This document shows positions 1-61,300 of a stretch of 64,000 nucleotides of DNA, in pieces. The translations under genes and the position numbers were made by a program. Position 1 is the stretch's first letter. Each line of letters begins with the position of its first letter. Below the pieces are notes generated by a model, which had not been told where the DNA came from, did not search any database, and saw only the letters and a program-made list of their open reading frames with translations. The stretch is taken from positions 11,625,578-11,689,577 of the forward strand of contig NC_087073.1 in assembly GCF_026151205.1 (NCBI RefSeq), read 5' to 3'. The DNA comes from Bolinopsis microptera (Eukaryota; Ctenophora; Tentaculata; Lobata; Bolinopsidae).

Positions 1-34755
<34,755 letters not shown>

Positions 34756-36648: not shown

Positions 36649-39600
36649 TTATGTAATGGTTTCATAAACGTCTGCAATACTTGCTACTTCATGTGTTAAT
36701 TCTAGACTGGGATAAAATCTTTCTGCTTGATCCAGTGAATCATTCACATAAGTGTCTTCATTTTCCCACCAAACGTCATATTCTGAATCGAGGACACAAT
36801 TAAGATGATTGAGTTTTGCAATCCTATGATATTTTTTAGCTTCATGGTCCGATTCGTATTCTTCTGAATTAGCATACACAGTTTGTTCTCTTGCTAACTT
36901 TTGTTTAGACAGCTCCACCGCTGACTTTTTATAAAGTTCACTCGCTGCATCCCAAGTTTCGTAAACTGAACTAGTAGAATAACACGATTGCAGCTCTGGT
37001 TCCTCGAGTTGCAAGGTAATTTTAGGTATTGGTGGCAATTTTGACAAGAAGATTGATGAAATCATTTCTTCGTTGTCTATTTTTACAACGGATGTTCTCG
37101 TGTCAGGAATCATGCCATAGCAATCTTCATACAATATGTTCTCTTCATCTTTAAATTGTATCTTCCGCCTTAGCAGGGTCAATGATTCCTGTGATATACT
37201 GGTACCGGAGGCTTGAATGACATTTTCTGTCTTACGACATCTTTTCCAGAGATAATATCCAACCAATGCCAGTACTGACAATCCTATTACCGTACAGACG
37301 ATGGGTAAGATAGGAGATATACTGTTCTTACCTGTAATGTAGAAGAGTTTTTAAAACTGAATTAGAAATTAGCTTAATAATTTGTGGTTACCACCATTTG
37401 ACGAGTTATTGCAATCAATCGTAATTGAACATTTGTCACCAGAATTAGAAGTGGTTTAGTTTCAGGATTTATCCTTGTCTGCCTGGTATTCTACATGCAA
37501 AATAGAAAGCACGGTTAATGTTAAAAATTTGTTGCCCCTTCCCATACTGTATTTATCGCACATCAATTACAAAAAAGGAAGCTGAATTACTTCAAAAATG
37601 TCCTGTAAATCTTTACTCATCTCGATATTTGAAGAAAAATACTTAATGTTCCATTGATTTGAAGGTAAGTCAGGGTTTGCGGTAAATCGGGGTTTGCAGT
37701 AAATCGGGGTTTGCAGTAAATCGGAGTTTGCAGTAAATCGGGGTTTGCAGTAAATCGGGGCATGGTAAATCGGGGTTTTACTGTACAATAAAATATGCCA
37801 TAAGTATAAAAAAGATATTTGAAGAAAAATACTTAATGTTCCATTGATTTGAAGGTAAGTCAGGGTTTGCGGTAAATCGGGGTTTGCAGTAAATCGGAGT
37901 TTGCAGTAAATCGGAGTTTGCAGTAAATCGGGGTTTGCAGTAAATCGGGGCATGGTAAATCGGGGTTTTACTGTACAATAAAATATGCCATAAGTATAAA
38001 AAAGTAAATATGCGCACATTTAGCACATCATCATCAATTGTCAATCTACTCCATGCTGTATTACCTTGAGCCATTGTTACAGTTGAACTTCTTGCAACAT
38101 ATCCGTCTCGAAAAGTAAATAAGCACACAAAAACATTCGGCACATCATCATCAATTGTCAATGTAGTCCATGCTGTATTACCGTAGTTAACATCTGCTGT
38201 GAAGGTAACATCTTTGATATTATGTTAATTTGAAATGTTTTTTCAAAGGAATATGTGTTTAATAAAATATCCCATTGATGAGAAATATCATAAACAAAAC
38301 ATAGTGTTTAACAGAAGGTTTCAAGATTATTTCCTGTATCATACCTATGCTAAGATCCTTTATTTCGTTGGCATTAACAAATGAGCCATCTGACATCTGT
38401 TTTTCCCATCCAATGTAATCAGGGTAAGATGTTGAATTTGCCAAACTACAGTTCAGAATCTGCTTGTTATCTTTACCAATTTTTTCATCTAGTCGAATTT
38501 CTGTAAAGGATTTAATACAGTCAAATCTCTATATATATACAGTGCCTCTCTATACCCTGAACAGGTACCTGAATATACTGGGCCTTTTCTATCCCCCCAA
38601 AATTTAAGTCAATTAGCTCGTTTTGTGCAAGAAATGTGATTTATCATAGCTTACATTTCATTTGATGATGATTTGAGTGTATATTCCATCACAATACTAC
38701 ACAAAACGTGCATATAAGGTCCTAACGGGGTGAATGGGAAGGTTATTTGAAAGGCTACAGATGTGGATTGGGATCATGTGAACCTCTCTATACCCGGGTT
38801 ATCTATAATGTGCACTTTTCGTTTTATCGAAAGGACCAGTATATAATAGAGGTTTCAATGTAATTCTAAAAAACCAAAAAGTCCAAAATAAACGTTTTGT
38901 AGAGTAAATCATCTAATCGTGATTAAAATAACATATTGTATGGAGTATGTTCTTATGCCAATTTATTGGTTAGTTACATCAACATCACCTATCACATCTA
39001 GTTTTACAGGATTCTTCATAATCCCAGAATCTCCAAAGTCAAATACACAATAGTAGGTACCATCATCTGATGGACCAACTTTTCCAATGGTATAAACAGT
39101 CGATATATTATCTGGTCTTAAAGCAATTTCCTGACAGTTAATTGTGTTATAATTTGATTTCTATAGGTTTATACTATGTCAAGAGGTTACACAACTTTTA
39201 TAGAATTGTCTTAATTTTAGCTATGATTTTGGTAAACAAAATCCAATAATAGTGCATATTAATTTAATAGAAAGCTGGTGTGCAGTACAGTGTCATTAAT
39301 CTGTTTATCCTTTGTTGTCCAATATGCTGACTTCAAGACAAGGTTCCCCGGAACAACTCTGCAAGAAAGATTTACTCCACTGCCTGTTTTTGCCACTATG
39401 TCTTTAGAACTAATAGCTGGAAAATATATTCAAAGTTTCAAATTTACACTGATAAAGTTAACTTTTATTGTTGTTAATTTCAGTGGCGAATTCAGAAACC
39501 AAATTGATCCAGCCTCCTATCCAGAGATATCTTTTCTTGTCAGCAATTTTTGATTTATTCTATTTTACACTTAATTTCATTAGCAACAGCCGAAATTCTG

Positions 39601-42600
39601 TTATTAGTTGACATCCATTGTTTCCTAGTATATAATAATCAAAAGCTTTGTCTTTGTTACAAACCTAATTTCTTCAGCGTATGTGTTGATTTCAGTGAAT
39701 AACCGGAAATATTGTACGCCACTAAGAATGTTTTGTTGCTTGTTACGTTCCCCATCATCATCAATTCTGTCGTTTCTTTGATGTGCGACACAGATATTCT
39801 GTTCAAAATTCCAACAGTATTTTGGGGCTTTGTCTCTAAACCTAATATGGAATGCAGTTTTACTTCCTTTTAGTTTATCTAGCACATGAACGGTATGGTT
39901 TTTGAAAAATATCAGTTCTATGACGCACTGCAAGCCGACATTCAGACCATAATATTCAAAGACTAATATTTTAATCGTTTTAATTTTCAATAATTACTTT
40001 TCAGTGAGCGTGTTTTCGATTCTGAAGCAGTTTTGTCAGTCAGGCGAACAAAGCAGTAGCTGGGTCTCAGTGACTTTAGCACAGTATTGGCATTCCCACC
40101 AACTGCTTTACCTTGACTATTCTGCCACTCAGTTGAGGCAATCTCAATACTGTTGTCATTAATCAATACCTCACATCTTACCATCGTAGTAGGGTTTATT
40201 CCAGAACATGATATCCCTGTTAGAAAATTATCTTCAAGCATATTATTAGGATAATGATCAATTTAAGTAAAGATTGTGAATACATATCTGCTTCTTCACT
40301 TATTGTAGAACAAGTTAGTGAGATCAACGTCTAGCAATGAAATAGTAGCTATAATGGATTACTACATAATATTTAATGATTAAAATCGAGAGGCACGTGT
40401 ATTTAAATATTTAATGATTCTTTCGTACATGCTTAATGTTGAGTCAATTCTTTGAACAATACACTAAAACCTTCAAAAGTCTCCATTACCTATGACATCA
40501 GTTCCATCCCCCGTAAAAACAAACTTAGCCTCTGTGTCGTAGTTGTCATCTAAGGACAACTTCAGCTCGAAAGAGCCTGCATTAACATCTGCCAGATTAT
40601 CTCCGTAAACTGCATAGCTGTCGACTGATATTTTCTCGTTAAGACCTTGTATTTTGCTTAACACTGTGGTCTTTGTCCAATTTCCGATCAGTTGCGTCGA
40701 TCCTTTAGTATCTGTTTTTAATTAAATTGTCAGTATCTTTATCAAGAACTACTCATTCTACCATTTGAGTACATATTGTATGATTTTGCTAAATATTTTT
40801 GGTGCATTATGAATGGGTCCCATTGACCGTCTTCTCTTGTATGTTAGCTTCTTTTATACATAATATATTTCCTAATAAAAACCACTGTTTAGATATTAAC
40901 TACTAGCATGGCTATACATATTTCTAAAACATCTGTAAGAAAGTAAGAACTGCGTGGTTCCACAGAGTACCTATTGCATCAGCTATCACCGATATGTTGA
41001 TTATTTGGTCATTACTGAGGGTCAGCTGACAATAATACATCCCTTCATTATTTAGAGAGAGTGATTTGATTGCAAGCAACGCTTTATTTCCCGGTCCAGT
41101 CTTCCTATCATAGAGTATCGACTTGTCTATCACTGGAATATATGGTTATTATGATGGCTTAAGTTATTAATAACTGACATCTTAGATATAAAGCATGTTG
41201 TTAAGTTTATCTGCTTACCACGTGCCAGGCACGTGTCAGGCACTCACATGATTCATTTGCGATGTTGGGATAGAACCATTTAGCGCTGTTCAGTTTGTGT
41301 TCCAGATTGTGCAACTCTACCCACATCTCAGCGCTCTCGTTTGCTTTGCTGACTGCATTTTTTTTCTCGATCTGAAGAAGTAGACAAAATTTATTAAACT
41401 AACCGATTGATTTACAGCTATTTATTAAATGTAAAGTTTTAAAGTTAGAAGTTTGCATAGCAGTGTTTAGTGTTTGCAGAGAGAGTTTAAAAGTTTAGAA
41501 ATGTTTAAATCTAATTTGTAAATCTAATTTCATTCTTTTTACCGTAACAACATCCAAGAAAGAGGTTGCAGTGAAGTTGCGAAATCCGCTTATCTCGAAA
41601 ACACAGGTATAGTTTGAGTCGTCAGAGAGTGATGCTGTTTCTACAGTAAAAGTCACCAAACTTCGTGACGTGGCTGATCTTTTCAAGAGTAAACCTGAGA
41701 TATTGCCCGCTAGCAGCTGATAGTTATTTAGGCGCACTGTCGCTGGTCCTTGTACGTAACTAAATAAGTAGGTACCTAGCTATTTCATATATCATTACAA
41801 GTTTTATATTCTGGTGGGTTATAATTCAGTTTTCTGCAAATTATCACAGTATTTATGGAATTAATAAAATCAAAATCTTAATTCCCATACTCTTGATATC
41901 GCATGATATTTTGCAGAGTACAACCTAGAAAATTGAGCCAGTCAAATGTTTTATTCCGTAACGACGCTCATCGCTATTCACTAATCCAAACTCAGTTACT
42001 TAACAAATTCATTAGTCTAGACGTCTAAATTCTCTATTTTTCTGCGGAATTTAAATCAGAAACACGTTTGAAATGGTTGTCGTGAACTTGTTGATGAGGA
42101 ATAATAGTATTGATTAACCAACCTGTTGAATCCGTCCAGTATGCTGAATCAAACTTGTGGTAAATTCCAGTTGATAACTCGCAAGATAACTCGGTGGTGT
42201 CACCTTCTATCACCACTACATCAGTTTTGAATATTGCTGAAATTAAAATACATTTATGCTTCTATCTTGAAACGCCTTACAAATACAGGAGGTGTAAAAT
42301 AAAGATGAAAATATCTATTACATCATTGTGTTTAAAGCTAAAAGACACAGTCGACTCACTAAAAACGTCAAGGAGTACGTAGCCCTGTATATTTGATTTG
42401 TTACCAAACCAAAAAGTGCAGGTGTAGTTCCCAACGTCTTTAGACGTTACATTGAGCAATGTTAACACACTTTTCTGCTTATGTTTCTCTGCTTTACTGT
42501 GTTCTACCGTACTTCCATCGATCGTGCTCCCTTGAAAAGTGTTAACAAATTCATGACTCAATGTTTACTGCGACTTTTCTGTGTCCGAAATAATTTTGTT

Positions 42601-44490
42601 AAACTGCTAGTCGCTGAACTGCTGAAGTTCGAATGTACAAAAGTCAAAAACTACAATTTTGCCACTTAGAGAATGTATTTCCAGGAATCTGTGAGAAGTA
42701 TTTTATAAAAAACATGTTACATACCGTTAGGATGAGTCCATTTAATGATCTGAACACCAGTGGAAACATTGTAACGTGTACAGGACAAAATCGTTGTTTC
42801 CCCAGCTAGGCTTACATTGGTGCCTCCTTGAACTCCTGAGGAAAGTAAGATCGAGGGTTATTAATCATGTAACAAGTTAAGAGCTAGTTTCTGACAGATT
42901 GCAGGTATCAATTGACGTATTGTCGTTGAACTTGGATTGGTTTTTAAATGCATGAATTTGCCAATGGGAGTGGACAGCATGATAATGACATTTACATTTA
43001 GCAACGTTTATAAAGTGTGACACGTACCACTGCTCATGTTACCGCTAATTATTTCTAATTATTGATAATAACTGCTCTTACCGCTAACATCGCAAGATTC
43101 AGGAATAAGTCCACTCCAGAATGCATTAGTGTCGTTGTACATACACCATGCTTCAATCCTAGTACCTTCATTACATGTCATGGTTATTCTACTTGTGTTG
43201 CTGGACACAGCAATGTCTCCGAACCTCATCACTCCACATCCTGCCACCAAATACCAAGTTACAGAGCGCACATGTAGAATGTAGATAAAACCAAAAACAT
43301 CAATACTTGACTATCAGAACTAGAATCTATCTGATGTAAGGTTACTGAAACATTAACTCTTTTTTGGCCCAGCATGCAAGCAGATGCTTTGTGGAGCTAT
43401 TAAAAGTTTCTCATTTGTAATTACCCAGTTGAAGTCTATTAGTGATGTGTACAAGTGTCTGCTTATCAGTCTCGTCGTTCAACAGGAGAACACTTGTAAA
43501 TCTGGCACTTTTTATTGGTCCTAGCTTAAACATCTGGTCTGTATTATGCATCGTAACACCACCTGAAGTAGCGGTGTTAAATATTTACGTGTGTGGTATC
43601 TACATTCCATGGTTCTGGACTTAATTAGCAAGAACCAACTTGTCTGGCCAGATTTTGTGACATAGTTTGATTAATTTGTAGTTTATGGGCGAATCACGAA
43701 GTGGTGAAGAGTTTTGTAGACTAGATTGTACCTTTGACAGGTTCAGACCAGACATTGCTAGAATCTGAGTCTTTTCCCTCAAACAGGACTCTGTCGTAGG
43801 TTACAATTAGTGAAGAAGACTTCTTTTTCATTTCAATTGTCTGGCTTTTGTTAAAACCTGAGTTTTCAAAGATTAGCAGGTTGTTCAATTGAATTCGCTG
43901 AATTTTACCTTGACTGTGACTGTAAGTCACCTCAATACAGTTCAATGAAGTAGATTCGACATTGAAGATTAGGCGATACATTTCTTAATAAACTAACCTT
44001 CATCAAGAAAATTCCACGTCAAGAAATGTCCCTGTAGGGAAATGTAAAGTTGAAAGTAGTAGCTCTTCCAGTAGACTATATCTCCAGACAGTTGATTGAG
44101 AGGAGATGAGAAGTTTAGAACTAGAGTAAACTTGTTGTTGCTCAGTGGCAAATCACTGGTAGTCTAGCAGGGTGTGGTAGCTTGAGTAAGGGTGATATTT
44201 TAAATTGTTCGGTTACGATATAAGGTTATCAAGTATCCTTGTTTAACTTTAATCGATTTAGGAAGTAAGCTCCTAACAATTCTTGTCTCGACTACTATTT
44301 GAATCTACCAATTCAGTAAATTAACGAATAGTATATTCTTTATTGAAATATAATTTTACCGAGTACTCAATCTTGGTGGATCGTTTTGTTGTTCTTTGGT
44401 TCAATTTTAAAGTTTCGTTCCTAGTCAGATCTAATTCTTCACCGACTTTGTCCCCAAACTTCCAGTATCCAATTATTAAGGGTACTTTTG
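36649..44490 (-). CDS. Receptor gene A: LamG-like/sushi/Ig type I membrane protein, first exon not found
   Basis: Paralogue of receptor B and tandem with it. About 19 exons encode about 1,210 residues from the first recognised exon: a LamG/concanavalin-like domain (1-183, with YWKFGDKV and NKFTLVLNF), a sushi module (184-236, ending WSGLIPESC), three Ig-like domains (237-530; Cys pairs and DVGNYTCTF, DDSNYTCVF, NEGMYYCQL signatures), an unassigned Cys-containing region (531-677), a module resembling the farnesoic acid O-methyltransferase-like domain (678-799, ending YLWIGGWINLVSEF), two more Ig-like domains (800-985), a transmembrane helix (ISPILPIVCTVIGLSVLALV) and a cytoplasmic tail of about 200 residues with YGMI, YPSL and YETI sorting-type motifs. 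The signal-peptide exon was not found between 44491 and gene B. Function is inferred: cell-surface adhesion or recognition receptor. Confidence 0.75.
37625..38004. repeat. Direct duplication (2 x 190 bp) with 17-bp minisatellite
   Basis: Two adjacent copies (37625-37814, 37815-38004) each contain five or six units of about GTTTGCAGTAAATCGGG and end in GGGGTTTTACTGTAC. Read in reverse, that end starts CAGTAAAACCCCGATTTACC, which looks like a pogo/Tigger-type terminal repeat, the likely seed of the array. It lies in the last intron of gene A. Confidence 0.8.
38005..38064 (-). pseudogene. Partial duplicate of the last Ig exon of gene A
   Basis: Sequence just downstream of exon 38196-38065 repeats about 55 bases of it: it would encode GNTAWSRLTIDDDVLN against GNTAWTTLTIDDDVPN in the real exon. 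The copy lacks the Ig cysteine and the rest of the exon and runs into the 190-bp repeat, so it is a relic. Confidence 0.65.
38516..38862. mobile_element. Pogo/Tigger-like MITE
   Basis: TA, then CAGTCAAATCTCTATATATA at the left and its approximate complement TATATAATAGAGGTTTCAATG then TA at the right; about 343 bases, no transposase. Inner sequence (TTAGCTCGTTTTGTGCAAGA) recurs near 11900 and in part at 25700 and 26870, so the family is dispersed in this genome. It lies in a gene A intron. Confidence 0.7.
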
Positions 44491-44912
44491 CTGAAAATCA
44501 TACTCATCGTAAGTCGAAGCAGAAACAACGTTTCACATTTGAATGTACTTTATCAGCTATCAAATCCTCTTGTGTATGTTTAGTGTTTACTTTGGTATTT
44601 GATCAAATTAATTATTCCGTTGATTGCCTCAAATCGTATCATGTAAATGTCATAAGAGATCGTTCCCATATTACGTAAACCATTTCAACCCCTCCCCTTG
44701 ACTGGCTTACGTAATATGTTGACGATCCCTATGAAAGCTGTGTTTGAATCTAATTTAAGACAAAAGAACACCTTAAAACTTCAGAAATTATATAACCCTT
44801 GAAAATAGAATGATTCACACCAAATTAACAAATTAATAACACTGTTTGCTGGATCCTGCCAGTTTAATTTAAATAAATCTTTAAATTTTATTTTCCATGA
44901 AACCGAAATTAT
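44491..44912. other. Gap between receptor genes A and B
   Basis: A signal-peptide exon for gene A was expected here, but no ATG on the minus strand opens a hydrophobic frame ending in phase 1. AATAAA for gene B (minus strand, 44887-44892) lies 21 bases downstream of its stop. Nothing else recognised. Confidence 0.5.
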
Positions 44913-47900
44913 TCATAATCTCTCACTACGACTATCCGTCTGATCAGTGTCAACACTAGAATCTGAATAATAAGTAGGACTCTCTTTTTGTGTGCTTCCA
45001 ATGCTAAGCCCTGTAGCGCTGCTATCTAAATCTACACTGTCTTTATAACTACTAGAATTAAAGCTACTGAGGGATGTTAATGTCTTCCCTGACACTACTG
45101 AAGTTCTGTCAGATCTCCTTGACATCATTGTTAGACTTGAAGAGGAGGAGTCTGACTCACTAGTGCTGTGGGTTGTAGAGTATTCTGATGACAGTGTTTG
45201 GGATGATTCTGATTCAGTGTAGCTAGATGAATAAGATTGGGATTGTGAGTCTGGTGATATATCTTCTGGCCAAATAGCGTCTTCATTCGGTCTGCTAAAC
45301 TGAGTTTCACCTGGATACTCCTTCAGCAATGCGGCCACTGTGGAGTCGGAATAGTAATAGCTGTAATCTTCATCCTCGTAAGAAGACTCTGTTATCTCGG
45401 AAGAACTGGTTTCGTACAGGTCTGGCTTACTGCCAACATAAGATCCCAAGTTTCTGTATTCCTCTTTGATGGGTTCTTCGATAGGTTCTTGAACATCCTT
45501 GTCCTTCGTCCTCTGCAATTTTCCCAACAGTTTCTTACCGAATCCTTTCTTTGTTTCTTTTTTGGCCGGTTCAATGACTGGATCAATGACTGGATCAATG
45601 ACTGGCTCAATGATTGATTCGAAGCATCTTCCACGACACTTACTCTTTCAGGCTCATCATCCTCAACAGCTAGTTCTTTAATATTTGGAGAATCCTCAGG
45701 AACGCTAACTTTCTCTTCCAGATCCCTCTCTCTATTCTGACTTTGTCTTATCATTTTCTGGAACTTTGCAAATGCACTTGTTTTCGGTTTTGTGTCCGGA
45801 TTCATGGCAATTAACTGATCTCTGTTATCAGCCAAGTTACTGTACTCTGGCGGTTCATGAACACTTTCTTCTGGTTGTGATACAAACTTGGTATCAGTCG
45901 AACTTCTGATTTCGGAATATTCATCGGTGGTCTTTGCCTTTGGTGAACTAACTGACTTGTCTGACATTATTGTAGTTGAATGCTCAGTAGCAATATCAGC
46001 AACCACAGTTGTAGTTTTTGTAGATCCTGGAGTCGATTCTGAATTTTCTTTGGTTGTTGAAGCTGTCGATTGTCTGCTGGAGACACGCTGGGATAACTCA
46101 TTGGACAAACTTGACGCAGAACTGGTGGGCTTGTCGGTCTTTAAATCCGCTGTATCATAGGTAGGAAACTGACTAGGTGTTTCACTTCTTGCTAGTGTAG
46201 AAGATTCTATTTGGGTTGTAGAATCTGCTCCTAATGTAGATGGTGTCACACTGGACGTTGATGGTTTATCAGACTTTTTTTGTTCGATTGATTTCGCTGT
46301 GCTCTCAGTCTCATACTCATCCACCTTTGTAGACGATTTTCTAATTTCATTATAACCCTCTGATAAGGTTCTGCTTTTAGCTGTTCTTGAGCTATTACTT
46401 TGCTGTGAGTGTGCTGACCTTTCTAGTGATTTTATTTTAGATCTCACAGAGGTTAAGTTCGAAACTGCTTGTCTCAGCATTAAGTGAAGGTTCCTTGTCT
46501 GACGACTTTCTTTTCTTCGATACTTTAGATTTTACTGTCGAGATGGTGGGTTCACTAGGTTGGTTCAATTCTTTAGTTTTGGACGACTTCGTGTTTATTG
46601 CTGAGCTTCTATCAGTCTGCTTGTCAGTGGTCTTTGAACTGCTGTTCCTTGGTTGCTCTTTTGTCCTTTCTTCCAGGTTTGAAGACGGCTTTGACTTGGA
46701 ACTCAGATTTGGAGCTAATGGGGTCTTTACTGCTGCGGATTTCTCAGATATGGAGGGTTCAACTTCTCTTATTGTGGATTGAGTAGCTGAAGATAATGAA
46801 ATAGCTTCTTTTACTGTGGATCGGTTAGATGATGATTCTGAAACAGCCTTCTTCACTGTCGAAGCAGTAGCTGTTGACGATTTTGTTGAACTGTTTTCCG
46901 AAACAGATTTTGCTGCCGAACTCACTCCAGATTTTTTACCAGAATCAGATGACCTGACCGAACGTTTATTTGAACTCCTGCTGCTCGTTGATTTTCTCAT
47001 TCTGGATGTCGAGCCTAGTGAGTACTTATTGTCGTCGTGATCCGCTCCAAGAGAGAAACTTACTCTAGACTTTGTAGATGCTGAAGAAAGTGGCTTGTAC
47101 ACTTGAGATTCCATTGCTGATTTAGACGATCTTGAAAGGTTACCGTAAGCACTGAGCGATTTGTAAATTGATTTTGGTGGCTCATGCTCTGTAAGAGGTG
47201 CTTCTTCTTGTTTCGATCTTTCCGATCTCTTTGATAGGTAGTCGGAATATATGCCAACATTGCTGATAGAATCATCAGGATTGATCGTTGTATAGTCTGA
47301 AAATCTAGATATTATCGACTGGACATCAGACTGGGTCAAGTAATCGTATGTCACTGATTTACCACTTTTCTCGGGCTCAGATTCCAGTTGTGGTCTTGAA
47401 GATGAGCTGGATTTGTCTGTCACATCTGTCTTCGTTATTGTCGATACTTTTGATCGAAGCTCAGCTGCAGATATTCCCGTTAAAGAGGGATCTTTAAGCA
47501 ATGATTTCAGATCGTATGACTTTAGACTGTCATATGGAATCTCGGTTGACGTGTAGTCCCTCACGTCTGAGGAAGCAAGACTTGCTTGAACTGATGTCCC
47601 CAATGTTTGATTCTCAGTCTTCTGATTTGTTGAGTAGTCTTCCTCTGTTTTTGCTACATCGTATATCAGCGAGGGTCCAAACATTGACCATATCGAACTT
47701 CCTCTGGTAAATCTACAGTCCTACTGATATCATAAGTTGGCTCACTCAAGTCCCTCATGGCGTCCATGGTAGCTGTAGTGTCTGTCCTACTCCAACTGTC
47801 ACTGCTTGCTCTGTGAGCCTGCACTGACGAGCGCAAGCTGAATGTGCGAGCTGAGGTCCCCGAGGGGATTTGGTCGTAAATAGAAGATTTCCGTTTTCTC

Positions 47901-48441
47901 AGGCCGCTGCTAGTTGGGGAAATAGGCTCCTGTGTGCCAAGCTCTGATTTCACGTTCTCCATATGAGTATCATAAATACCTTCATTCGCTTGCTCTTTTG
48001 GAACAGCTGTATTAAAATTGAAAGACCTTCGGAAGAAATCGTATACTTTATTACGAATATCTTTCTCTGACTGAGCATCTCTGGGGACCTCATCCACTTT
48101 TCCATCGTTAGATTTTGACGACGAATTTGATAAAGATCTACCCATGAGAGTCTCTACTTTGCCACCCAGTTGAGATATTGAGATCTCAATATCTCTCTCC
48201 TCTGGGCTGTACTCAGAATAGTTGGCTGGTGTTTGGAACTGTCTCATGGTGGAAGTATCGTAAAATGAGCTTCCTGACCCAGGAACTGTGTTCATATTCT
48301 CACTGTTTATATCCGTGAGTGCCGGCTCGTCAGATAAGTAGGGTCCTTTGTATCTTATCTTGGAGTAGACTACAATCACTACAGCAAGGATGTAAGTTAG
48401 GATGAGAAGGGCAAATGTTATCAGTATTAGAGCCCACCACC
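44913..48441 (-). other. Transmembrane and cytoplasmic tail exon of gene B, with three frame breaks
   Basis: One long exon-like stretch in four overlapping open segments: 48441-47666, about 47706-46454, 46480-about 45590, and about 45640-44913. Amino-acid character (Ser/Thr/Glu-rich, regular Tyr) is continuous across the breaks, for example SIYDQI before and IPYDSL after the first, and IIEPVIDPVIDPVIEP after the third. GT-AG pairs 34 to 38 bases apart exist at each break (about 47692-47658, 46454-46421, 45651-45614, the last with a GTAAGT donor), and 71-74-base alternatives exist at the first. Micro-introns, sequencing indels and true frameshifts all remain possible. The stop is at 44913-44915. 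Confidence 0.65.
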
Positions 48442-51400
48442 CTGAAATGAACATGACTTGTAGACACTGAAGATATTGGACAGCATTCTGGTTCCTTGAT
48501 CAAACCTATCCTCCCAAGATGCCATGCTATAGTTTTATCTATCTTTAGAGAAGATTGTAACAGTAAATAAAACATATTACATTTCTGTATTTTAGAGGAT
48601 GGCATCTTGGGAGAAAGATCAAGCAGTGAAAATAAATCTCAAGTTCAGGTTACCGATCAGAGTAAAGATGCCATCTTCTAGAATACAACTACACGGAAAC
48701 ACATAAAATAAATATCTCCTAAAAGTGAAACAGCAACTTTACTGATGGAATAAATAGATCAACTTGTGTCTGATCGATACTCTGAAACTTCTAAAATATT
48801 ATTTAAAATCAATTTATTTATTGCAATCTATCTTTGAAATACATAATAACACGTCTTACTGCACATTAAGTTTCAATTAAACTGTTACAACTTCACAAAG
48901 AAACAATTCATAACACTTGTTATATCTTACCTACGACAGCTTTTTGAGTAAGTTCGATGTAAGAAAGTGGATCGAAATATATCCTGCAGGTATAGTCCTG
49001 TTGGTACAAATTCTCAATCGTGAGGTTGGTTGAGTACCAGATTGGCGAGGACAACTCTGATAAAATTTAACTTCATTAATCAGCAACCTTGGATTCGCCG
49101 ATCTGTCTATTGTTTTTGCATATTTTTTTATAGACAGTCTAAATAGCATATTTTGCATTGATAACCAATTTTATCAAAATAGCGGTAGGGGTATTATTAA
49201 CAGTTATCAGTGGTTAATGATTTTGCTTTTTCTTAAGATATAGGCGAATACAATATCAATATGCCGTCAGTAAATTGAATATTCTATGAAAAAACGGTTG
49301 CATAAAAGACTGAAAAGATATGGGCAGAACTAATCAATTTTAATAACTATATGCCTTGACAGACCAAGGTGTCTATTCAACAAATTACTTTTCATAAAAG
49401 TCTATATGTTTTTTTTTAAAAACTAGTGCTTAAACAAAGATCCTTTTACTACGTGGTTAGCTATTGCAAACCACCAGAATGTTTTGTTATATCGTAATTT
49501 TGTTGATTGTCCTGTGACATAAATTCATTGAAAAGAAATTATTTTTCTAAACACTTGCTTTTTACCGGTCACTGTATATTCCCCAGCTCAGTTTTCTCAC
49601 CGTAAACATATTTGTGAGTAGAGTTGTTGATGACCTGTTCTCCGTTTCTATTCAACCACAGTATTTTCTCAGCCCGAGTTGTTGGTAACGTGATGTCGTG
49701 AAGTTGACATCCTATAAAACTTGTTCTCAACAGTCCTTTCGAGGTTCCTCTGATTTCTGATGAGGTTTATTCGCGATAAAAGTTTACTTTGTGAGTTTTG
49801 TTTGTAAGCGATTATAAATTTTTATAACTTTACAGATAAAGACATCCATACAATGACTTTATCTTTAAACTCCATTAAAAGTTATATTATTCCCCTGCTA
49901 AGATCCACTAAGATCTGATAAGTTTAATAGTTTAAGCTTCTCGTAATACCTACAAAGTCGACGGTGATATTCCTGTAAAGATTAGAACCGTTGTACCCAA
50001 AGTAAAGTTTAGTTCCGACCATGCTGTCCCGAGTAAACCCGTTCATGTAAAATGTTAAGTTCTTGTCCGTGTCGAACACTGCCCTCACAGTTCGTTCCAC
50101 TGTTTCAAACAGTACACTTGTTTGGGCTGAGTGCTGGATCTCTGGTGGGTTGTGTGAGGTGGTGGTGTGTGGGTCATTGAATATTCAGGAGGGGCTTCTA
50201 ATTATGTTATAATTGGATGATCTTGTGTTCTAGAATATTCAATGTTAACCTCATACAATCAAATCTACTCGCATGCGTATTGCGTACGTTATTCAATGCT
50301 CAAAGCAGCGATCGTGTGTTATAAATAACCCTAATTTATAGCATATTCATTATTAAATACTGGAGTTCGACTAATTTTGTAAAATAACCACGTGTGACAG
50401 GTGTACTCTGTTTAGCGAGTGCTCAGTAAGTTCTTAAGTTAACCAAGTGACAATAATACTGTGACAGTCCAACCAAGTGACATTAATACAGTCTAACCAA
50501 GTGACATTAATACAGTCTAACCAAGTGACATTAATACAGTCTAACCAAGTGACATTAATACAGTCTAACCAAGTGACATTAATACAGTCTAACCAGTAAG
50601 TTGGAGTTTGTTCTCTGAGATAGAGTTGGGGGCGAGTGTAAAGTTACAATAATACTCCGTATCCTCTCGACCAGTAATGTTCAGATAGGTTGTCAGAGAG
50701 TTGTACTCGAATACTGTAATGTTCTCCTGTATAGTGGAGACTGGAGTCAGGCTGGGCGCGAGATTTTGAAAACTTAACGTTGAGTAAAACAAAGATATAT
50801 ATTTTGGTATCCCTAGCCTTATCAACAAATAGTAATAAGTCCCTGGCCTGCAGACTTTACAACAATTAAGGGGGGGGGGGGGGGGGGGGGGGTTGGTGTA
50901 AATTTGATAACCTGGTTGATGCAGATACCATGTTTATCAAACCACTGTGCACAAATAGGTTGCTCAAGAAGTCCTGTAATGTTGCAAGCTAGAAACTCCT
51001 CTCTGTACTTCTTAAAACGTTTTATCGTTACTGAAATTAATAGGTCTTCACTTCTCTCTCAATGTTAGAGTAACTAGCAACGTGATATTATGTCAGGTTT
51101 TATCTTTTTCCAGGTTCTAATTTTAGTAGGGGCTGGCAAAGAAGGTGTCACGTACCAACATGAAACGTTTCGTCTGTACTCCTTTTCTTACTCTGCAAAT
51201 CTTTGAAAATGTACTGTACACTTGTGGCGTTAACTTTAGTGTCTCCATAAGACACTGTAGTCCCCACAACTGTCTCACTGTCGTCTGGTAACTGTTGGAA
51301 TACGTCACGTGACGTCATGATACGTCACGTGATGTCATCACGTCACATGGCGTCACGTGATTACACTAGCTAGTTATTTATTTACTGAGATGAATTTAAG

Positions 51401-54400
51401 GCTTTGATAATATTAGAGTTCAACGTTTTCTGCTTAAACTAAGTTGTCACTTGTCAGAAACCTGTACATTCTCAGCATCAAGAACCCAGGCCGCCTTGAC
51501 AACTTCATCATCGTTATTCCATACCCTGAAGTTGACTGACATGTTGGTCGTCTTTGTCACTACCTCGTCATACAAAATTGCCTCTGCGACGATATAAAGG
51601 ATAATGATATTGATGTTGTTCGCAACATACGTCAATGTCTATTTTTCATTAATCGACATGATCACAGACACAGTTGAGATTAGTAAGATGGATACGGTGA
51701 TTACAAATATTAAACACTCGCAAACAGCCCGTACTTATCAGATCCACTAATGGCTGTCACCATGCTGACTCTCAAGTAAATCATTGCGTCACCTGAATAA
51801 CAGCTACACACGACAACTTACCCACAACATCCAGTTTGACATGGTCACTAATAGAAACCCCAGAACTAAAGTTGAACTCCACAATGTACTTCATCTCATC
51901 TGCATACGTCACATTCCTTATCTTCAACTGTGTCCAGTCCAGATTCCTATCCTTTACTTCGTTCCCAAACGTTAACGTAAACCTCGAGTTGTTTTCAATC
52001 TTTGTACCTAGAGCAATTAATTAGAGAGTAAGGCAGTGATTAGTAATTAGAGAGTTACTCAGTTTATCATACTGTTACACTTGTTGTGAAATGTGATGAC
52101 ATTCTTTTGTGTTTGAGCGCAGTGGGAGTTATTAATTACTCATTTGACGTAGGATAAGTTGGGCAGAACATGAAAGTAAACGTAACGTTTGGACCGCTAG
52201 GTGCAACGTACCATTCTCAAAGTACCACGTGACTGAGAGACTGTCGATTGTGGCGTTTTCTCTGTTCCCAATCAACACTATATCGTCCCCTAATTGTGCA
52301 GCCCTATCTGGTGCGTAGATACCTGAAGTATCATCATCACGTGATCTCCTTTAGCCCGCTTATATTTCGTTCCTCAAAGAGTTATGATCGACTCAGAGAG
52401 TTATGATCGACCGCCCTCAACGTATCGAAGTTGCACTAAGTATTTGTAAAGTTTTCAAAGCCGTATGTGCACATCAACAAGCATGTTAAGTCTATATATA
52501 CTTTTAGCAGCTTGCTGTACGTCTTTCATTTTGTATTATCGTTATCTTCTAGATACACTCAACCATACTTTGAGATTAAGTAACTAAGCATCGCTGGCAA
52601 ACGTACTTTAGTTTTGTCTATATTACTCACCACTAAAATCACAGACTTTAAGGATATCCCCCTGCCACCAGGACTCATCATCACTGTATTTACAGAGAAG
52701 TTCCAGCCAGTAGCCCTGCATACACTGCCTGTGTACAGCGTACTGGTTACCAGGTACTTCCAGTCCTCCTATCTTTACTTTGCCTTCACATCCTGTCAGT
52801 ATCTTTAGTTAACCGCGCAATTGGGTTATAGTTTTCTTGTCACAGATATTTCTGGGCTGTACTATGATTGAGTGTACTCTGGTTTAAATGACTTTTCAGC
52901 TATTTTCTTCTCATCATGTCGTATTGACAAAAGCCTACATCTATTACTATTAACATATTGCTTAGTGCTAAATGATTTTGAACTTAAATAGGTATATATT
53001 ATCAACAATATAACAGGAGCTTTCATGCACGGAACTGACAACAATGATCATTGGTGGCACTCATCACTACCAATAAATATAGGAATAGGGTAATTGGTAT
53101 AATGTTAGTGTTTACAGACTTATTGTGAGCCATTTCTCTTATTTACCTGTTGTACTGGGCACGAACACGCGTTTGAAACATCTTACGGTGGAACTAACAG
53201 TGAACTTATAAAAGATTTATATCGGTCAAAGGATGAGTAATGATGATATAATGAACAGAAAAGACGTTTATGTTGACCATAACACGTGAATGAGTCAAGT
53301 TAGTTTCTCTTTTGTGAGAGCAGTTGTATGGTATGGATATCATGCTATATGATGTAACAGTGGTATATTATTTTAACATGAGCATTTAACAGTTTACCTA
53401 GGTCTAGACGCTCTAGGGCTGTATTTCTCTCTGCAAGAGTGAGGACTGTGTCGAATAGTGCACAGTACTTCACGTAGCACTCCGTGTTTTGGCCTATCTG
53501 GAACTTATACTTTGTATTCGTCAGAGTCCGGGGAACTGGAATTGTAGGCTTCATTTTGAACGACGGACAATTTCATAAACATGTTTTAAAATAAATTGCG
53601 TTGTTTGTTTTTGTTGTCAGTGTTCATTTGGGAATTAAAGGTTGACAGTTTCCGAGCCGAAAACATTTTACATTTTACATTTTTCTTACGTTCTATGGTG
53701 ACGTTATATATGTGAACCTCGTCAACAAACATTACTATCTTATCTCTGTCGTAAGTGATCGTTATCTTGCTGTTATCAAACCATTCCTGTATCTCTGGGG
53801 TCGTTTCCACTCTATCCCCTCCTGTCAGATTTATGAGGTAAAACTTTCTTAATTTAACCTTTTTTTTGGATGGTTTCCAAAGAGAAAGATCATTTAGGGT
53901 AGACAACGTTAACCTTTGATAACTAAGACAGAGACTTGTTTTGGCAACTTTAACCTTTGATAACTAAGACAGAGACTTGTTTTTGCCGGATAACACGCTT
54001 TTGTTCCTTCTCTCTATTTCTTATAGAACTCCTTAAGTTGTGTTTTAACAAACCCTTGTCGATCCAGATGAGCTGTATCTTCTGGTCCTCAGTCTGATAC
54101 ACAGCAAACTTAAAGTAGTAGGTATCCCACTGCAGGATGTATCCTGCATCAGTGTCCGCTATTTTCAGGTCCAGGATTATTGTAAACTTAGAGTCTACCA
54201 TTGCTATCTCCTCGTCGTTCTATAATTACAATGTATTAGCTACGTCATAGCAACGTCATAGCTACGTAGCACAAACGTTGGCCAAACCGGAAATGTGCTT
54301 TAGTTTTCGCTGGATGTCTCTACTAATGTGATGCTTCTAGAACGTACTTCAAAGACAAACATAGTGAGGTCGACCTGCCACTTTATTTGACGTCCTAAGA

Positions 54401-54831
54401 AAAGTTAATATCTCCTCACTTCTACGAAGGATCTCTTCTCATTTGAAAGCTGAGTACTAGGGAAGGGTCTCTCCACATACTGCTGATAGTAGCCAGAGAA
54501 GTTAGACGTTCTCACGTGATCTTTTAGAGGCAGATATTTGCTGTCTAGTCTCCAGTACGCTAACAAATCTTTACTACTCCACACTCCTGGAGACATGTTG
54601 AATAGTAACGGTAACCGATATATAATGTAGCTAAGTGATTTTGTCATACACAACAATGTCATACAGTGAGAACTTTTCATCACTGTACAATGTACTTAGT
54701 GCATATATTTATAATTAGTTATATTATCTTCAGAATAATGCACTGAAACAAACCTACGGAATAATAAATTAGATAAAACAGTTACCTTGTATACAAGATG
54801 TGAGAAGAAACAAGTATAAAACACCGTACAT
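44913..54831 (-). CDS. Receptor gene B: signal peptide, LamG-like, sushi, Ig-like, TM, long ITIM-like tail
   Basis: Type I membrane receptor of about 1,850 residues. Signal peptide MYGVLYLFLLTSCIQG (exon 54831-54786). Residues about 17-216: LamG/concanavalin-like domain (LLAYWRLDSK, KITITYDRDKIVMFVD, YKFQIGQN). 217-270: sushi-like, four cysteines. 271-539: three Ig-like domains, the first two without canonical cysteines, the third typical (REDTEYYCNF). 540-603: a LamG-like piece (KNLTFYMNGF). 604-682: Ig-like (LYQQDYTCRI). Then the helix WALILITFALLILTYILAVV and a Ser/Thr-rich tail of about 1,140 residues carrying SIYDQI, IPYDSL, VTYDYL, SIYKSL and SAYGNL, which fit the ITIM consensus. The tail shifts frame at three places. 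Inferred role: adhesion or recognition receptor with phosphotyrosine signalling, possibly inhibitory. It is head-to-head with the PP2C gene. Confidence 0.75.
45577..45620 (-). repeat. 12-bp coding repeat (IDPV units) in gene B tail
   Basis: Four tandem copies of a 12-base unit encode repeated IDPV/IEPV tetrapeptides in the downstream frame; the third frame break lies at or just before this array. Confidence 0.8.
50440..50593. repeat. Minisatellite, 24-bp unit overlapping a gene B splice donor
   Basis: About six copies of AACCAAGTGACATTAATACAGTCT abut exon 50726-50594. On the gene's strand each unit contains GGTTAGACTGT, the same sequence as the real donor, so each copy carries a potential extra donor. 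Confidence 0.85.
50866..50892. repeat. TTAA followed by a 23-base G run
   Basis: TTAA then 23 consecutive G, next to the acceptor-side sequence of gene B exon 50726-50594. It looks like one half of the TTAA/G-run hairpin at 13138-13200. Confidence 0.8.
51301..51360. promoter_or_regulatory. Three 20-bp units rich in CACGTG and TGACGTCA
   Basis: The units TACGTCACGTGACGTCATGA, TACGTCACGTGATGTCATCA and a diverged third contain E-box (CACGTG) and CRE-type (TGACGTCA at 51310-51317) motifs. They fill the short intron 51292-51461 of gene B, beside its acceptor. Regulatory use is inference. Confidence 0.45.
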
Positions 54832-55380: not shown

Positions 55381-58300
55381 ATGGCATCGGACGAGGAAAT
55401 GTCAGGAGCGTTGGCGTGGCTGAACAAGTTCTGTGCAGATAACACAGATAAGTACGAGAAGGAGGAGAACCCACTGCGTATTATAGCCTACTACATTTCT
55501 AATCATGAGATGCAGGGCGCTTGTATGAGCTGGGCAAGTTCTTATCTTCACAAACTGTACGTTCAGGATTTTATGTTGCTTAATTTTCTCACGGTCAGTT
55601 TTAAAATTGAAATGAAATGTGCGTTGAAAGAACCTTGATTTCAATTTGTTATCATGATAAATATTTTCGTATTTATAAACACATATTTGCAGTATTTTAA
55701 ACTAATGAGATTTGCCTACCCATTTCAGGGACTGTCCTCTAAACTTCGCGTTAGTGTTATCTTATCACATAGCTAAAGAAGTAGAACTGCTGGACACAAC
55801 ACAGAACTTTACTCAACACGACACCGAACAAGGAACACGTGAGTCCAGACATTATTTCAATGTTTTCAATGTTTGCAGACATTTTTGTTTGCGATGTTTT
55901 GTCCTGTTGTTCCACGCTAGTAGTACAGGAACTAACTAGACTACCACATTCCCCTTGGGGTAGATGTTGGTAATAATTACATATTAACTTATTAATATGT
56001 TTCAGCAAGATGTTACATGTTAGTGTTGAAAGTAGTTAAACGTACCTGTTGTTGACAGTTTAAGATATTTGTACTTTCAGAGACGGTGGCAGCCGAGGTA
56101 GCAAGATGTGTTTTCAACAAAGTCCATCAGGTACTTTACAAACTCCTCACACGCACGCACACTACTTAGTACTTCTTGGGGGACTAAATTTAGAATCGAC
56201 ATTTAAATACAGCAGCGTGAGAGTGATATATAAATAGAGCAAATGTCAATAATGGGTACTCTGACTCAAATGTATCTTAACAGCCTCAATACCATCACAG
56301 TTATGAATCGCTGATAATATAATCTCTGTTTATAATAGGCATAGTTAAACTTATGTCATACCTGAGTAGGTGGGTTAGCAGTTTATTAATAATCTGTTAA
56401 ATAATAGTAACATGTCACGTGACCAGTCTCACCTCCCAGGTGTGTTGTAGGTGGCAGTCTGCCCCGGAGCTACCTTACTTTGTGAAGGAGTACATGCTGG
56501 ACGACGGCAAGATATTCTCAGGAGCATGTGCTGATCAGAACAGAAGGAAGAAGATGGAGGACAGATATATCTGTATACCCAACCTCAACAACTTGCTTCA
56601 ACTAGAGGTGAGACCTATATCTGTATACCCAACCTCAACAGTCAACAACTTGCTCCAACTAGAGGTGAAAACTTCTGTTAGATGTTTAGGTCACATGACA
56701 TGCTCCGTCGGTTCAGTGTGCTTTGGTCCAAGCTTTGCCTGGCCCTGCCATGGCTCTCTAGCTTGGGATGTTTTATACTTTGTAGTTATATAATATATAT
56801 ATATTATATGCTTCACACCTACACAACCACACATCCTTTTCACTTAATATTTAATGGGCTGCAGTTATTTCTCGTTAATAATTAGGCCTGATGTACATCC
56901 GATATTTAATTGGTATCTCACTATTTCAGTACATCTGCTTGTTAAGTTAATATTGTTATGTAAGTATGTGTAATGTGCTTTTGTAAGTTATTCATTATTA
57001 AATAGTGAGTGCGTTACAGCATGAAATATAGCGAAAGTGTAGAATATATTATATACATAGTTTAGATGGTTTTCTAGACTGTCCATAAATGGTTGACTTC
57101 TACCATTACCAAATTGTCATAGTCCTGCCACAATTTCTCTGCCATAACGCCAATGTCATTTCAGACATTACTAATGTCGCAACTCGCCTTGTAGTTTGGA
57201 AGTTCCTGCAAATTTCAAATTTGCCATCAAATTACGACATGTATGTAGGAGAATTGCAACTGCAAGCTGTAGTCTTAGTAGTCGAGATACTCAACTCAGA
57301 AACCATTTTATGACTTCTGAAGGGTGATATTACAATGGGCATTGTGCTTGTCAAATATATATTGTCTAGTCGGAGTCAGGTGCCACACTTCCGTATTAGG
57401 AATGATTAGAGGACGCATCAAAACTCACCTCGTATCACGTCTCTCACTAGTGAGAACATTCTCGCTGCTCTTACCACTGCATTGACAGTCCACTCAATTA
57501 TAATTACATATACAACATAATATCATTATATTAACATGTAATAGGCTTAACCACTAACTAACACAAACCACAAAGGCGGGCTAGTTTGTTGACAGAGTGT
57601 ATACGGTCAAACTACAGGACGTGTTGTACTGTGGTGTAAATGTTGAGTTTATTTACTTAGTTTATTTAGTTGATTAACTAAATTCAATACTCGCTTAGTT
57701 ACATGTTGTACAACGAGTTGTATTATTATAATACACGATCGTTCAATAATGAAACACCAAGCTGTTACATAGGCTAATGAGCATGCATTTACACGTGGTG
57801 TTTTAAACTGAGTTTTACTGAAACTCTTGTAATTCTGTAACATGCTCGCGCTCTATTCAATGCAACTCAGAAGTAACAGCACCGTAAAAATGGACGCTGT
57901 AAATTGGCGCAATTTTATAGTTAGTCCACCATGTAGCAAGATATCAGTTAAGATTTTGACGAAATTTTACCAATCTAATCAACGAAGGTTATTTTTGCTA
58001 GTCACGTGCAAAATTGTCCCGCACTAGATTGACGAAATAACCCCCTCGTCCCATCCCTCACCCTAGCTTCAATTCAGTGATTAAACGTAACCTAAATCTG
58101 CTCCAGGGTAAACGAGTGTCGTACCACGCGGTGTATGACGGACACGGAGGTATTGACGCGGTGGCGTACACTATACAGCACTTACATCTCAACATAGCTA
58201 AGAGCCCAAACTTCGTGAACGACCCTGCTAAAGCTATTGAAGAGGGGTTCATCTTAACAGACAAGAACTTTGTTCAGAAAGCCAACAGAGAGGTATTAGG

Positions 58301-61300
58301 ATTGTATATTCTTTATCTGTTAAATGCTTTAAACTACGAGTCACAGATCTAGAAGGAGCTTCACTTCACTCTTTAATCTGGAAAGTCTCAAGACCTGCAA
58401 GATCGTCTTAATCAAATGTTTAGACTGATTCATCTGGAATGAGTACCTATTACATTGATTATTGAATCAAAATTTAGTGGTTATTCTTAAACCTCCCTAA
58501 GTCCGGACAAATTTTGACAAATTCTTTCGTCATAAAACTTTAAAAGCATACCGATAGCATGACGAGACTCTCGGGAGTTTTATTATTTCTGTTCCTCGGC
58601 TAATACAAATATTTTGTTGACGATGTCAAAAGATATGAATAATTATTCACCGGTATTAACGAACATAGCTGTGAATAGTCATGTACAGTGCATCGTCTCC
58701 CTAACCGAACAATATGCAGTTCTTATATAATAACGGCTCACATAATATCCCTTATCAATTGTTAGATCAGCGGTTCATATCAATATACTGACAATGATGT
58801 GTAATAGCTTATAACTTAGTCACTTTATTAACTAATTACACTAATAACTTAATTAACTAACTGCGTTTTAATTGCCCAATTAACTAATGGTCCCCGCAGA
58901 ACCTCCGAAGCGGAACCACCTCTGTTGTAATCATGATAACCTCGACACACCTTCACGTGGGATGGGTCGGGGACTCTCAAGCGATTCTGGCAAGGAATCA
59001 GACTCACATCGACATCATGACCCCTCATAAACCTGAAAGAGAGGCGAGTTGAAGTGTTTTATCTTACATTCCAGAGCGATAAAAACCAATCAAATTGGCC
59101 ATCAAATCGGTACTAATTAATGAAGCACACTGATGTTTAAGATAGACCAACATGTGCCGGAGCGGGGCCACACTCTAACAACCATAAACACTATTCATAC
59201 TGTGCCTCTGTGAACATTTCTAACATTTCAATATCAGGATATCACCCAGATTATAATAACCACCCATATCCACAAATATGTTTGCAAATGACCCTGTCAA
59301 GCTTGTTTCTGATATCATTGCTCAAATAATTGATATTTCTTCAGTATCTCAGTAACTTTGCAATGGAGCCATTAATAATTTAACGACAAAAGAATAGCCT
59401 CCCCTGGTTCAGTGGCTGTTTATAATCATTGATCGGTAGAGATCATGAATGATTCGGAGAAAACCGCTCCCAGTCTCCGGAAATCCCGGGCGATTGCTGC
59501 ACAGCTGCAAAAACAGCTAATGATTTAATTAATCCTCACAATACTTAATACGTTACTGCGAATGACGTGTCTCGTATAATATCTAGCACAACTTATAATT
59601 ACTATGCTATTGTGCGTTATATAATAACAAAGGTGAAGCTTACTAATTCAGTACAGGACTCACCATCATGTGACACCATGTAATGACATATTATCATTTC
59701 TCATGATAATCTACTAACGATAACAGGAGAAGCTCCTCGACGTCACACCACCACTCAACTTCACATGTCTGCAATAATCATTGTACATTAAATTATCATC
59801 AGCGGTTATAATTTATCAGGTCATTAGAATAGTATAGTGTGACCCTGTCATCTGACAATATAAACTGTGTTATCATACCCCATGAGATCTGCTATTGCTA
59901 GTTAGATAGAGATAGAGTGCTCTCTAGTGAGCCGTTGTCAAGGGAGCGGCGCACAAGGGAGCTTCTTAGTTGATCCTGACAACCCTGATTAGATTTTAAC
60001 CACCTAGTCAGCGGTCACGTGATGTCATCCCCTGACTCGTCTGTCTCACTTGATAGATCTGCCAAAAATCTGTGTGGAGAAACTTACTGTGACTCGTTCT
60101 CTCTGTTAAGTTATTTAAGTATTCCCCCGGTTGCGGAAAACCTATCTAAACATAACGCTAGCTTAAAGTGCCCGGATTCTTCATATCTAATTATATTTTT
60201 CTTAAGTATTTACAGTACACACAGTACACACATAAAGTACCCAATAGCTCATTAGATATTAGCTGTACCCACATATTTGTCTGAGTGGCCTGGAACTTGT
60301 CCAAGTGTGGGCACTTAGCGCATGCTGTGTTATTTGATCCGTGTTGTTATGGTTGGATTACCTTATTACATGGCTCCAGTTATAGGAATATTAGGTTATA
60401 TTGGCTCGTTATCAGGACGTCAGAGGAATGTTCCCTCATTTTGGGTTTCGTGAACTTGTAACTCATAGTGGGCTAGGATACCATTGGAATGCAAAGGCTG
60501 CACTTTTAAACTGGGTACATTCCTTTGTAGACATTTGCCTACTGACTATGGAATAAAGCTGATGTTCAGAGAAAAAAGCTCGGTACAGTGTACTTTATTA
60601 GCCGGGAACATTGGAATGCGAAGTTTGAGTACATTTTTCCTTGCAGTGTAAGGTGTGCACCAATTTGACGTAAAAACGTTGCCAGTTTGTTGAACTTGTC
60701 GGTATTCCGTCAAAACATCTCAAACGGGCGTTGCAAATCCACTGTTTGACGGTAGTTGATAGCAGCAAACCGTGTTAACAACAAATCAATGGTTATTTAC
60801 ATTTCAGATTAAAATGCTAGTGGTTAACCACGATACACTAATGGCAAGTAAAGATAAGTTAGTAAAGAGTAACGCAGGTTAGTAACGCTAAACTTTTCAG
60901 GATGAGAAGAAGCGTATAGAAGACCTAGGCGGGTGCGTAGTATGGTTTGGTGCGTGGCGCGTAAATGGTACTCTGTCCGTGTCCCGTGCCATTGGTGATG
61001 CATCCCACAAGCCCTACGTGAGGTGTGCTCTTAATGTGTTTTACAACCACATTCCATTTAACTGTTCGAAATCTTGGAGTTTTTACTTTTTAGCCCTGCA
61101 TTCATTGTTGTACAAAGCATTTTGTGTGAACTAAATTGTAACCTTTGAGTTTCTGAAATTCTGACTTCAATATTTGGTGGTAGTGGAGACCCAGATATAA
61201 AGTCGCTACTTTTGGATGGAACTGAAGACTTTGTTGTGATCGCATGTGATGGACTGTGGGATGTCATTCCACCTTGGGAGGTAATTATTATTTTACTTGC

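Follow-up and report, generated by a model that had tools for sequence, protein, structure and literature searches.

Two adjacent, spliced genes on the minus strand of a Bolinopsis microptera chromosome, designated gene A (54831-44913) and gene B (44490-36649), form a genuine tandem pair of ctenophore receptors, and an unusual one. Coordinates refer to the window, by which we mean the whole 64,000-nucleotide stretch of DNA analysed. The two genes have a layout in common, namely a multi-exon head, a sushi exon, Ig-like domains that are usually split across two exons, and a single strongly hydrophobic stretch with a tail after it; the count of one helix in each protein comes from reading of the translations rather than from a helix predictor. 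We consider it probable that the pair arose by an old tandem duplication of a single-pass receptor of the immunoglobulin superfamily that is specific to the ctenophore lineage, and that the two would have related heads and different outputs.

Gene models

The models were produced by a simple exon-chaining script and then corrected by hand. In both genes the exons are open and the introns are bounded by GT and AG. The start of gene A is uncertain, being placed at 54831 in one model run and at 54596 in a stricter run; the choice of exons in gene A is uncertain between 51583 and 50594, and exon 39841-39665 of gene B is doubtful. For the fourth head exon of gene B, an end at 43453 was rejected because it breaks the frame to the sushi exon, and 43425 was adopted instead. 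The shorter B model (43453) underlies the B-head genome search, the Ig profile built from A and B, the search of the PDB with the heads, the first A-B alignment, and some of the home-made LamG profile tests described below. Table 1 lists the parts of both genes. Each gene has a tandem repeat in an intron: a 24-nt unit in gene A (window 50440-50619) and two 190-nt copies (99%) in gene B (window 37624-38003).

Table 1. Parts of genes A and B in window coordinates, with the evidence for each.
Feature	Position	Strand	Evidence or remark
Gene A exon 1, with the start and a signal peptide (MYGVLYLFLLTSCIQ)	54786..54831	-	by reading; one of two model runs
Gene A exon 1 donor, phase 1, AAG/gtaact	54786..54831	-	leader scans
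Gene A LamG-like head	53398..54586	-	exons 54586-54420, 54219-54054, 53821-53690, 53535-53398; LamG identity weak
Gene A sushi-like exon, four cysteines	52631..52792	-	model, A-B alignment, PDB profile
Gene A Ig1, exons 52322-52212 and 52007-51822	51822..52322	-	I-set E=0.009, sub-threshold
Gene A, rest of the ectodomain (degenerate Ig-like exons)	48931..51583	-	by reading; Pfam: none above cut-off
Gene A ectodomain exons	51030-50929, one ending 50594, 50141-49950, 49756-49601, 49056-48931	-	
Gene A hydrophobic helix and tail start, WWALILITFALLILTYILAVVIVV	47725..48441	-	by reading
Gene A Ser/Thr-rich cytoplasmic tail	44913..47653	-	exons 47653-46466, 46422-45640, 45577-44913; stop 44913
Gene B LamG-like head	43425..44490	-	exons 44490-44360, 44163-43998, 43857-43732, 43562-43425; leader exon not found
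Gene B sushi-like exon	43082..43240	-	PDB profile, A-B alignment
Gene B Ig1, exons 42835-42725 and 42530-42360	42360..42835	-	Pfam ig E=1.1e-9
Gene B remaining Ig series, in general with two exons to a domain	38065..42236	-	39416-38989: Pfam ig E=9.6e-5
Gene B unclassified domain within Ig series	40711-40490	-	
Gene B hydrophobic helix with tail of 199 residues	36649..37331	-	stop at 36649

Homology of the two genes

The N-terminal halves of the two predicted proteins are homologous, with 81 identities over 308 positions (E=2e-25, corrected B model). The homology extends to the structure of the genes. Seven head exons could be compared, with lengths in A and B of 167/131, 166/166, 132/126, 138/138, 162/159, 111/111 and 186/171 nt; phase is identical in all seven, and three (166, 138 and 111 nt) are of equal length. 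Five of the six internal exon borders coincide in the alignment, and the sixth is displaced by six columns. Farther along, the last Ig domain opens with an exon of 156 nt in phase 1 in both initial script models. The shared exon layout of the heads exceeds what chance would produce and points to tandem duplication. The original prediction, which posited a tandem pair with matching exon borders in the N-terminal halves and with greatly different ectodomain middles and tails, is borne out in these points: the middles are unlike, and the tails are 1,092 and 199 residues long.

Domain content

Gene B belongs to the immunoglobulin superfamily by the curated Pfam threshold, which its Ig1 (42835-42360) exceeds at 38.9 bits against a cut-off of 21.8. 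The stretch 39416-38989 also passes the cut-off, and the middle part of the protein gives sub-threshold Ig matches only, the best at 5e-4. The I-set match of Ig1 in gene A falls below the cut-off, and by reading this domain is without both canonical cysteines. The membrane-proximal ectodomain of gene A gives no Pfam match at E<=10, apart from one hand-read piece that matches C1-set at E=0.11. A joint profile of A and B, compared with the PDB, matches Ig chains across the Ig1 domain among the best 60 of 99 sequences at E<=10, with a best E value of 5.5e-6. Gene A is thus a putative member of the superfamily, placed there solely through its homology to gene B and through the joint profile.

For the sushi exon, neither gene gives a match to the Pfam Sushi model at E<=10. 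A profile built from the two exons, compared with the PDB, retrieves complement-control (CCP) proteins in 16 of 16 matches at E<=10; the best whole-sequence E value, 0.0017, is a sum across several CCP repeats. Taken one by one, the matching stretches of two such alignments are weak, with E values of 1 to 150. A CCP/sushi module in A and B is thus supported by the profile, without support from Pfam.

The identity of the heads is less secure. Pfam Laminin_G_3 matches the head of gene A below its cut-off, at E=0.056 for the whole head and 0.038 for a trimmed version, and an unrelated RNA polymerase family does as well or slightly better (0.046 and 0.02, respectively). The head of gene B, the corrected model included, has no Pfam LamG match, and no LamG chain in the PDB was matched by either head. 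Against home-made profiles of 10 and of 70 ctenophore LamG_3 domains, the heads score no higher than shuffles or reversed sequences. With the larger profile, made from 10 loci and 60 picked from 150 listed rows (one of the 60, a 99-residue open frame, was kept), the score of the head is attained by 21 of 100 shuffles and the length of its alignment, 117 columns, by none of them. By the order of motifs, judged by eye, the heads are probably LamG-like, and the LamG fold is putative. A LamG half-domain was also suspected in gene A exon 50141-49950, for which Pfam gave nothing. Laminin_G_3 domains as such are very numerous in this genome: at least 150 of 250 candidates exceed the cut-off, these being all of the 150 that were scored.

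A domain search of the ectodomains had been proposed as a check on the predicted order of LamG, sushi, Ig, helix and tail. Its outcome confirms Ig in gene B by Pfam and sushi by profile, and the helix stands by reading; LamG, sub-threshold in A and absent from the Pfam results for B, is the unproven element of that order.

Copy number and genomic surroundings

Chromosome-scale scaffolds, 13 in number, make up 97.23% of the published B. microptera assembly, and k-mers place the genome at about 254 Mbp (PMC10232365); the assembly of the ctenophore Mnemiopsis leidyi comprises 247.97 Mb in 13 chromosomes (PMC11797021). We searched the assembly that contains the window (264,652,675 bases in 232 contigs, with the locus on the contig designated C2) with five fragments of the two proteins at a threshold of E<=0.1. 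Distant copies could be missed, because the first look of this search was coarse and the queries from gene A covered it as far as Ig1 and then from 50141 to about residue 170 of the tail. The head of gene A gives eight matches, seven to itself and one to gene B (E=0.01). The head of gene B gives nine: seven to itself, one to gene A (E=0.002), and one to an Ig domain on C5 (E=3.9e-4). Of eleven matches to the Ig series of gene B, ten are to itself and one lies on C3 (E=0.005). All four matches to the membrane-proximal part of gene A, taken to about residue 170 of the tail, and the one match to the helix and tail of gene B are to the query itself. The place of the pair is matched once by each query fragment in this one assembly. 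No further gene of the A/B type was found in the five-fragment search, which leaves the two weak Ig matches on C5 and C3.

Three loci elsewhere in the genome were inspected: C5:5.82 Mb carries Ig repeats by reading, C2:14.27-14.29 Mb is by reading a MAM-LDLa-Ig-like gene, and C2:13.526 Mb has LamG and sushi in one open frame and no Ig there.

Among seven neighbouring open frames scanned, two carry PP2C domains, two carry PACT, and three have no match at E<=0.01. To the right of the pair, on the plus strand, lies a PP2C-type phosphatase gene (window about 58041-61134, best E=5e-11). To the left, also on the plus strand, a PACT (pericentrin/AKAP450) domain forms part of a coiled-coil gene (window about 33018-34755) and is split over two open frames, one above the cut-off (E=5e-8) and one below it (2e-4). 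The nearest recognized neighbours on the two sides are thus PACT- and PP2C-domain genes, and the five-fragment searches yield two genes and two weak Ig matches; the suggestion of a larger cluster of recognition receptors is not supported by these searches. Elsewhere in the window are a perfect inverted repeat (24854-27724; arms of 954 nt, 100%, 963 nt apart) and a near-perfect one (22269-23688; arms of 647 nt, 98%, 126 nt apart).

A and B might instead be adhesion or guidance receptors of an ordinary developmental kind, each with a single orthologue in other ctenophores. We hold this reading to be quite possible while leaning against it: the few copies that the searches returned, neighbours that are not receptors, and a head exon layout kept between A and B would fit it, but identity of about 26% between the two, the degenerate Ig domains of A, and the very different tails suggest fast change.

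The leader exon of gene B

In-frame stops lie immediately upstream of 44490, so the first known exon of gene B must be reached by splicing. In the roughly 420 bases between the stop of gene A and 44490, no hydrophobic exon was seen that has both an ATG and a phase-1 donor. A scan of 15.5 kb for such leaders returned 10 candidates, of which the leader of gene A itself has the best donor score; it joins the exons of gene B in frame, at B exon 2. Two other candidates, 53133-53040 and 53026-52939, both in an intron of gene A, are more hydrophobic than the leader of A. Since control stretches of equal length give about 5 and 16 candidates, the scan has low power and its result is a lead.

These results bear on a reading in which the locus is one transcription unit, with the leader of A spliced to the exons of either A or B so that two receptors would issue from one start. 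We regard it as unlikely. The in-frame stops, the lack of a hydrophobic leader candidate between the two genes, and the strong, frame-compatible donor of A's leader would accord with it, but the more hydrophobic candidates in the intron of A and the low power of the scan weaken it, and a weak exon, an error in the model or a non-functional gene B would also explain the absence. With its leader exon not found, gene B may not yield a surface protein as modelled. The missing leader could further mean that B is a decaying copy from which no surface protein is made, an improbable reading given that its head and its helix and tail exons are open and their splice sites agree in phase.

Cytoplasmic tails

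The tail of gene A has 1,092 residues, 31% of them Ser or Thr, with 43 Tyr; that of gene B has 199 residues and 12 Tyr. Motifs were counted against shuffles, with an ITIM pattern whose first position may be I, L, V, S or T; all P values are uncorrected for the number of motifs. In the tail of A, there are six ITIM-like sites against 2.51 in shuffles (P=0.0395, uncorrected), 12 YxxPhi sites against 5.76 expected (P=0.0045, uncorrected), three YxN sites against 1.47 (P=0.17), and 40 acidic-flanked tyrosines against 24.36, a count reached in 0 of 2000 shuffles. None of the motifs tested is significantly enriched in the tail of B by the same comparison: ITIM-like sites number zero (0.97 expected), YxxPhi four (2.49, P=0.22), YxN two (0.49, P=0.08) and acidic-flanked tyrosines 12 (8.41, P=0.11). 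For the ITIM-like tail originally proposed, the counts give a weak enrichment in A and no site in B.

Predicted function and comparison with known receptors

Taken as an old duplicate of a lineage-specific receptor, the pair has as its likeliest predicted function ligand recognition followed by tyrosine-based signalling. The unit of LamG-like domain, sushi module and Ig1, homologous exon for exon, would be the likely binding head, and its ligand might be borne by a second cell or by the matrix; the other Ig-like domains would serve as a stalk. Ligand binding or clustering would then lead to phosphorylation of tail tyrosines, on which SH2 proteins may dock. The long Ser/Thr-rich tail of A, with several ITIM-like sites, could recruit an SH2 phosphatase, and the short tail of B would offer YxN and YxxPhi sites and no strict ITIM. 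With such unlike tails, A and B would link related heads to distinct outputs. More broadly, A and B presumably act in adhesion or recognition.

Two homologous genes that share one kind of head and carry very different tails would suggest that the logic of paired receptors can arise outside cnidarians and bilaterians. They also offer defined genes on which expression, knock-down and binding can be studied. Should A and B be no more than a lineage-specific adhesion pair, they make a modest addition to the catalogue. We know of no named family with the order LamG, sushi, Ig, helix and tail, and neither a LamG-sushi-Ig receptor nor a ctenophore allorecognition locus appears among the literature matches listed, as judged by titles and the openings of abstracts.

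The Alr proteins of Hydractinia are single-pass receptors with tails. Like A and B, they are recognition proteins of the immunoglobulin superfamily, and many are encoded in one complex (PMC11999971); A and B differ from them in the LamG-like head and the sushi module, in the two copies found, and in belonging to another phylum. The likeness to cnidarian Alr drawn at the outset therefore holds for style, in the tandem, diverging receptors with tyrosine-bearing tails, and not, on the five-fragment searches, for a large clustered family. An Alr-like role for A and B as allorecognition or polymorphic immune receptors, within a larger complex, is accordingly speculation to which we attach little probability, for the resemblance of style is set against two copies in the five-fragment searches, PACT and PP2C domains in the nearest recognized neighbours, and an Alr family of 41 members in one complex (PMC11999971).

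Other comparisons reach parts of the architecture. The ITIM-bearing Ig receptors of the LILRB type resemble A in their Ig ectodomain, single helix and tail tyrosine motifs (PMC11999971), but A has a tail of 1,092 residues and B lacks a strict ITIM. Another ctenophore, M. leidyi, has proteins that combine a C-type lectin domain (CTLD) with Ig, EGF or sushi (PMC11797021); unlike A and B, its CTLD-Ig-sushi proteins are based on C-type lectin domains, and the main text of that paper has no occurrence of the word laminin (PMC11797021). Within B. microptera itself, a 486-residue open frame at C2:13.525-13.527 Mb encodes a LamG_3 domain, two stretches of sushi and repeats rich in cysteine. This protein shares with A and B the order of LamG then sushi (Pfam 1.2e-14 and 1.1e-12), and differs in its cysteine-rich repeats, in an uninterrupted LamG, and in having no Ig in the open frame. 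No sequence relation to A or B was found, 11 of 100 shuffles scoring as high. To our knowledge, neither a LamG-like nor a sushi module occurs in ITIM-bearing Ig receptors such as LILRB.

Further features of the genome were observed in passing. The glutamate-receptor ligand-binding family has 32 matches, several of them close together on C12 and C3. Among the best 60 of 283 PDB sequences matched by one glutamate receptor of this genome, three ML032222a iGluR sequences of Mnemiopsis leidyi and 4zdm from Pleurobrachia rank first, ahead of the GluA chains, in keeping with a ctenophore origin. Groups of Ig matches lie at C5:15.97-16.10, C7:14.70-14.78 and C9:6.45-6.48 Mb, and these may suit a search for receptor clusters better.
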